Below, piece by piece: positions 31,850 to 32,572 of a DNA stretch of 64,000 nt. Within the stretch, counting starts at the first letter, position 1. Each line of letters opens with the position of its first letter. The position numbers and the translations under genes were made by a program. Origin of the DNA: an uncultured Eubacteriales bacterium (lineage in GTDB: Bacteria > Bacillota > Clostridia > Oscillospirales > Oscillospiraceae); NCBI GenBank assembly GCA_900317855.1, contig ONIG01000005.1, positions 1-64,000 of the forward strand. The letters are read 5' to 3'. The notes under the pieces are model-generated. The model saw only the letters and a list, made by a program, of their open reading frames with translations. It searched no databases and had not been told where the DNA came from.

Positions 31850-32439
31850 TCAATCCGGCGCGATCGCCGCCTTCAGCCGCGCCGCACCGAGCGCAAGCTC
31901 GTCGCGCGTCAGGCCGGAATAGCGCAGGATGAGCTCATTTTTGTGCCGTCCCTTCACTGCCGCCTGCTGCTCGACCGACACGGCATAGACGCCCCGCTGC
32001 AGCATCCGCCGGACGAGCGCATCCGTGCAGTCCACCCCATCAAAGGCTGCGACCAGATTCATGCCCGCGGCGCCGCCGCTGATATGCACCACGGGCCCAA
32101 TCTGCGCACGCAGGCAGTCCGTCAACTGGTCGCGGCGGGCCCTGTATTCCTTTTTCATGCGGCGAGTGTGCCGCTCGAGCTCCCCGTCGCGCAAAAACGC
32201 CGCCAGCGCAAGCTGGTCGAGCGAGTTGGTGTGGTGTCGGACAGGCGCTTTTGCGCGCACAGCGAGGCGACCAGCTGCCGCGGCGCCACCAGATAGCCCA
32301 GCCGCACGGGCGGAAAGAGCACCTTGCTGAACGTCCCGCCGGAGAGCACGCCCTCCGGCGCGAGCGGCAGGCGCGTGCACAGATAGCGCGCCACCGCACC
32401 GAGAAAGCCGCCGACCCCGACAAACAGGCAATTCAACAT
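31850..32439 (-). pseudogene. Chimeric pseudogene: CrcB start fused to a MocR-type aminotransferase C-terminus
   Basis: From the ATG at 32439 the first ~28 residues (MLNCLFVGVGGFLGAVARYL...) are the N-terminus of the fluoride channel CrcB/FluC. The frame then passes straight into GTFSKVLFPPVRLGYLVAP, the PLP-lysine region of a MocR/GabR aminotransferase domain. Near 32240 a one-base shift moves the match to another frame (RHHTNSLDQLALAAFLRDG, and on to LILRYSGLTRDELALGAARL). Both parents are incomplete: CrcB lacks its channel helices, and MocR lacks its HTH and most of its PLP domain. Read as a deletion fusion plus frameshift, so no functional product is expected. Confidence 0.85.
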
Positions 32440-32453
32440 ATTCTCTATCCTCC

Positions 32454-32490
32454 AAAAAAGAAAATGACCCCTGCGAAAGCAGAAGTCATC
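32454..32490 (-). terminator. Fluoride-riboswitch terminator
   Basis: ATGACTTCTGC pairs with GCAGGGGTCAT across TTTC, followed by TTTCTTTTTT on the minus strand. Its left arm is shared with the 3' part of the aptamer. Confidence 0.88.
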
Positions 32491-32537
32491 AGCCATTGCG
32501 GCGTTTTCAGGTCACCCTGCGGGAGCACTTCATTCCC
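32480..32537 (-). promoter_or_regulatory. Fluoride (crcB) riboswitch
   Basis: Minus strand: GGGAATGAAGT opening, TCCC closure, then GGCTGATGACTTCTGC, which carries the conserved GCTGATG and the pseudoknot partner of ATGAAGT. The layout matches the known fluoride aptamer, and the gene start after it is a crcB start. Fluoride should allow readthrough. Confidence 0.9.
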
Positions 32538-32543
32538 AAGGCT

Positions 32544-32572
32544 ATGATAGCAGGATGCGCCGCATTTTGCAA
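32544..32572 (-). promoter_or_regulatory. Promoter of the fluoride riboswitch transcript
   Basis: TTGCAA (32567-32572), 17-bp spacer, TATCAT (32544-32549) with an extended -10 TGC. The start site is predicted at the first base of the aptamer. Confidence 0.75.

Follow-up and report, generated by a model that had tools for sequence, protein, structure and literature searches.

A crcB–mocR chimeric pseudogene behind an intact-looking fluoride riboswitch in an uncultured Oscillospiraceae bacterium

What does a fluoride riboswitch control when the channel gene behind it has been reduced to its first codons, and how does such an arrangement arise? These questions are raised by a locus in a window of 64,000 nt (the whole stretch of DNA analysed here) from contig ONIG01000005.1 of an uncultured gut bacterium of the Eubacteriales, family Oscillospiraceae (GCA_900317855.1), whose genome is a 1.96 Mb draft in 49 contigs and is 97% complete. 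We examined it together with a genus sample (the host genome and nine congeners) and a family sample of 400 genomes.

Anatomy of the locus

At this locus, an intact-looking fluoride riboswitch is followed by a crcB::mocR chimeric pseudogene. On the minus strand, from position 32572 down to 31850, the locus contains a promoter, an aptamer, a terminator, a ribosome-binding site, the start of crcB and a fragment of mocR, in this order:

32544–32572, minus strand: sigma-70 extended -10 promoter, TTGCAA-N17-TATCAT with TG before the -10 element (TTGCAA-17-TGCTATCAT)
32473–32546, minus strand: fluoride riboswitch aptamer RF01734, 40.7 bits over the full model 1-64, without non-standard pairs
32463–32490, minus strand: intrinsic terminator, 12-pair stem and T tract
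32155–32439, minus strand: fusion reading frame of 94 aa, composed of the CrcB start, a MocR piece and an out-of-frame tail
32353–32439, minus strand: crcB', codons 1-25 (to 28 if the shared LAP codons are counted), as aligned with CrcB of the family
32353–32364, minus strand: junction CTCGCGCCGGAG, a probable crcB/mocR microhomology
32237–32364, minus strand: mocR fragment in frame with crcB, ending at the frameshift
31850–32236, minus strand: remainder of the mocR C-terminus, uninterrupted as far as the stop at 31852-31850 but in another frame than the fusion

The promoter has 9 of 12 matches, and one was found where 0.3 would be expected. The aptamer exceeds the RF01734 gathering threshold of 34 bits over its full length (Rfam covariance model, E 8e-8 in 64 kb) and is therefore a member of this family; it is the single fluoride riboswitch in the whole genome. 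The terminator overlaps its 3' end and serves as the expression platform, so that platform and aptamer are coupled, and a ribosome-binding site (GGAGGA) lies upstream of the ATG at 32439. The riboswitch is probably still able to fold and could permit read-through in fluoride. An earlier note on this DNA had described promoter, aptamer and terminator as complete, followed by about 28 residues of CrcB, an in-frame switch to the PLP-lysine region of a MocR-type regulator and a later frameshift; this anatomy proved accurate, coordinates included, with the junction at 32364-32353.

An extended -10 element of the CCTGCTATCAT style with a TTGACA-like -35 element is common to three promoters on the minus strand (31511-31483, 32572-32544 and 33805-33777), and the style is also found upstream of two neighbouring genes. 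This suggests that it is a favoured promoter form in the host genome.

The fusion starts as CrcB: MLNCLFVGVGGFLGAVARYLCTRLPL, read from the ATG at 32439, can be aligned position by position with CrcB sequences from the family (MLNC..GGFIGSV.RYL...), and the NCBIfam CrcB profile matches with an E value of 4e-5. The four-helix CrcB/Fluc domain (PF02537) is not present, as only profile positions 1-29 of 103 are covered (15.9 bits against a cut-off of 32.9). Among 20 scanned crcB loci of the family, three have the riboswitch directly upstream of crcB. Three family relatives (L069, L070 and L076) share the aptamer, the overlapping terminator and a crcB start just downstream, whereas in the host only about 25-28 codons of crcB are left.

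Compared with the sister species, the frame then switches into MocR (PEGVLSGGTFSKVLFPPVRLGYLVAPRQ..). The fragment belongs to the PLP-lysine region of the aminotransferase domain and carries the motif GTFSKVLFPPVRLGY, which it shares with the C-terminal aminotransferase domain of MocR/PdxR-type GntR-aminotransferase regulators. These regulators have a GntR HTH and a complete aminotransferase domain in one frame. In the remnant, by contrast, about two thirds of the regulator are missing, including the DNA-binding domain, and the last third is frameshifted: a base present in the sister species is absent at 32237/32236, and the fusion frame stops at 32155. The nearest intact mocR (genome G213, 42% identity) is divergent from a riboflavin operon.

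Origin of the fusion

On both flanks, the sister species, Firmicutes bacterium CAG:103 (HF985779.1), is colinear with the window at 91-94% identity. Its MocR tail is about 90% identical to that of the window, and the block upstream of the locus is also common to both genomes. After this block, the sister has neither riboswitch nor crcB; its MocR fragment is longer, reaching about 70 codons further upstream, and has a frameshift of its own near the C-terminus.

Over 136 codons of the remnant (32364-31943), 29.5 of 107 synonymous and 14.5 of 301 nonsynonymous sites differ between the two species (dN 0.050, dS 0.345, dN/dS 0.14; p 6e-10 for synonymous versus nonsynonymous). Since the remnants differ mainly at synonymous sites, mocR was constrained at the protein level for much of the divergence of the species, and since truncations and frameshifts differ between them, it broke later and separately in each. 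The flanking genes have a dS of 0.14-0.21, about half that of the remnant (p 0.006); this difference may reflect recombination, a more divergent or foreign allele, or a later arrival of crcB.

The junction CTCGCGCCGGAG resembles both MocR of the sister (CTTGCACCGGAG, encoded by CTT GCA CCG GAG) and crcB of the relative L072 (CTCGCGCCG, encoded by CTC GCG CCG), so a deletion via short homology is plausible. We consider it likely that a riboswitch-crcB-mocR array once existed and then suffered differing deletions in the two species. In the ancestral locus, the riboswitch and crcB would have stood directly upstream of a MocR-type regulator gene, in the same direction. A deletion in the host species, probably via the CTYGCRCCG(GAG) homology, would have taken out crcB from about codon 26 onwards and approximately the first two thirds of mocR, and a separate 1-base deletion would have broken the mocR frame. 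In the sister, a different deletion would have taken the promoter, the riboswitch, crcB and the mocR N-terminus, with a different frameshift arising in the C-terminus. The present output of the riboswitch in the host would then be only a 94-aa nonsense fusion.

The earlier note had proposed that a deletion joined two neighbouring genes, and that close relatives might have crcB and mocR side by side. The chimeric pseudogene and the differently deleted locus of the sister bear out a part of this; the adjacency itself is a reconstruction, as no intact crcB-mocR pair was found in the 400 family genomes among the crcB loci that were read, mostly to only 1.5 kb on each side. Searches of genome, viral and plasmid collections returned only CAG:103 and distant MocR proteins, and a DNA search with riboswitch-crcB' gave only riboswitch-level or crcB-start-level similarity.

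The absence of both crcB and the fluoride riboswitch from all nine congeners, as well as the raised dS of the remnant, would also fit an ancestral locus that contained only mocR, in front of which a riboswitch-crcB piece arrived horizontally, before or with the fusing deletion. We regard this history as unlikely: it requires an insertion on top of a deletion, and mocR of the sister is cut from the shared upstream block, as a single larger deletion that took riboswitch, crcB and the start of mocR would explain. It is less probable still that crcB and mocR are complete in the real genome and that the assembly dropped the middle part or joined separate regions, even though the draft consists of 49 contigs. 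In the sister, the sequences on either side of the junction lie at this one locus, which makes a chimeric join very unlikely, and a chimeric contig was rejected on this colinearity. For an internal collapse a repeat would be needed, and there is no evident one; the genome search gave no further piece of CrcB, and the locus of the sister was broken independently. A functional fusion, that is, a fluoride-induced 94-aa membrane peptide or read-through RNA with a new role, is barely credible in spite of the intact riboswitch, ribosome-binding site and start codon and the in-frame join, because of the four CrcB helices roughly one is left, the frameshift follows 39 residues past the join, and the fusion is unconserved, being absent from the sister.

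Fluoride export in the genus

No intact CrcB was found in the host genome at an E value of 0.001 or better, and the same search gave matches in 10 of 14 control genomes, which served as the positive control. CrcB was detected in about 45 of the 400 family genomes; its lack in all nine congeners implies that absence of CrcB is normal for the genus. The claim of the earlier note that the fluoride channel had been removed is thus in agreement with the genome-wide search. Its further suggestion, that the cell would need another CrcB copy or lose fluoride tolerance, was too narrow: there is no other CrcB, but a gene for a CLC fluoride/proton antiporter-like protein is present in the host and in eight of the nine congeners (L137-L144).

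In the host this protein (L033, L136) is encoded on contig C31:34584-35846 and is the sole CLC of the genome. It is closer to the solved CLC-F antiporter (6D0J/K/N, E 1.6e-52) than to chloride CLCs (E 3.3e-9), and its counterpart in CAG:103 is 97% identical. In S. mutans and other oral streptococci without Fluc, fluoride is exported by CLC-F proteins (PMC11077948). As in these single-CLC-F streptococci, the only CLC of the host is nearest to this type; it differs from 6D0J and the streptococcal proteins in its filter motifs, and no riboswitch was found before its gene. The motifs NTNAI, GREGA and GGEVVP are non-canonical: the Asn of GMN/GNN is kept, while GREGA and GGEVVP differ. At the probable position of Thr320, which binds fluoride in the solved protein, the host has Val, and Val or Ile is found across the genus. 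Replacement of Thr320 by Ala inhibited transport, and Met occupies this position in the inactive S. mutans 1290. Another CLC-F-like protein (L009) also has Val there; it lies behind a weak fluoride-riboswitch match of 23.9 bits, below the gathering score. We hypothesize that the host CLC exports fluoride, and fluoride tolerance, if any, would most likely rest on this chromosomal protein.

In four relatives without CrcB (L001, L002, L003 and L005), a cation/proton antiporter-like gene stands behind the fluoride riboswitch. This antiporter had no match in the host genome in a search run without a positive control.

A riboswitch without its gene

A comparable case is known in Bordetella pertussis, where a manganese riboswitch controls the non-functional exporter gene BP3410 (PMC8546581). 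In both, a toxic-ion riboswitch is kept before a dead exporter gene; in B. pertussis, however, the ion is manganese and the riboswitch was shown to work, whereas here the ion is fluoride and the gene was lost in a large deletion fusion. Our literature search found no directly relevant report of a crcB pseudogene preceded by a fluoride riboswitch. The locus is a new instance of a known process, the formation of a pseudogene with a surviving cis-regulator, and an ordinary case of gene decay. That the orphan riboswitch has been retained in a new role, such as a short read-through RNA made in fluoride or the 94-aa one-helix CrcB-MocR peptide modulating the CLC exporter or the convergent tRNA-Leu region, would be very improbable.

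The riboswitch has outlasted its own gene and stands between the inferred intact state and the sister, in which everything is lost. Such orphan riboswitches mislead automatic annotation, by which a fluoride channel would be predicted here. The findings further suggest that the whole genus relies on a CLC-F-like protein whose motifs are unusual; this reliance is the more testable question, and the anion selectivity of the protein is of interest.

Two T-box leaders were also observed on the minus strand of the window, at 35470-35225 and 24288-24081; the former precedes a membrane permease-like gene (35262-33907).
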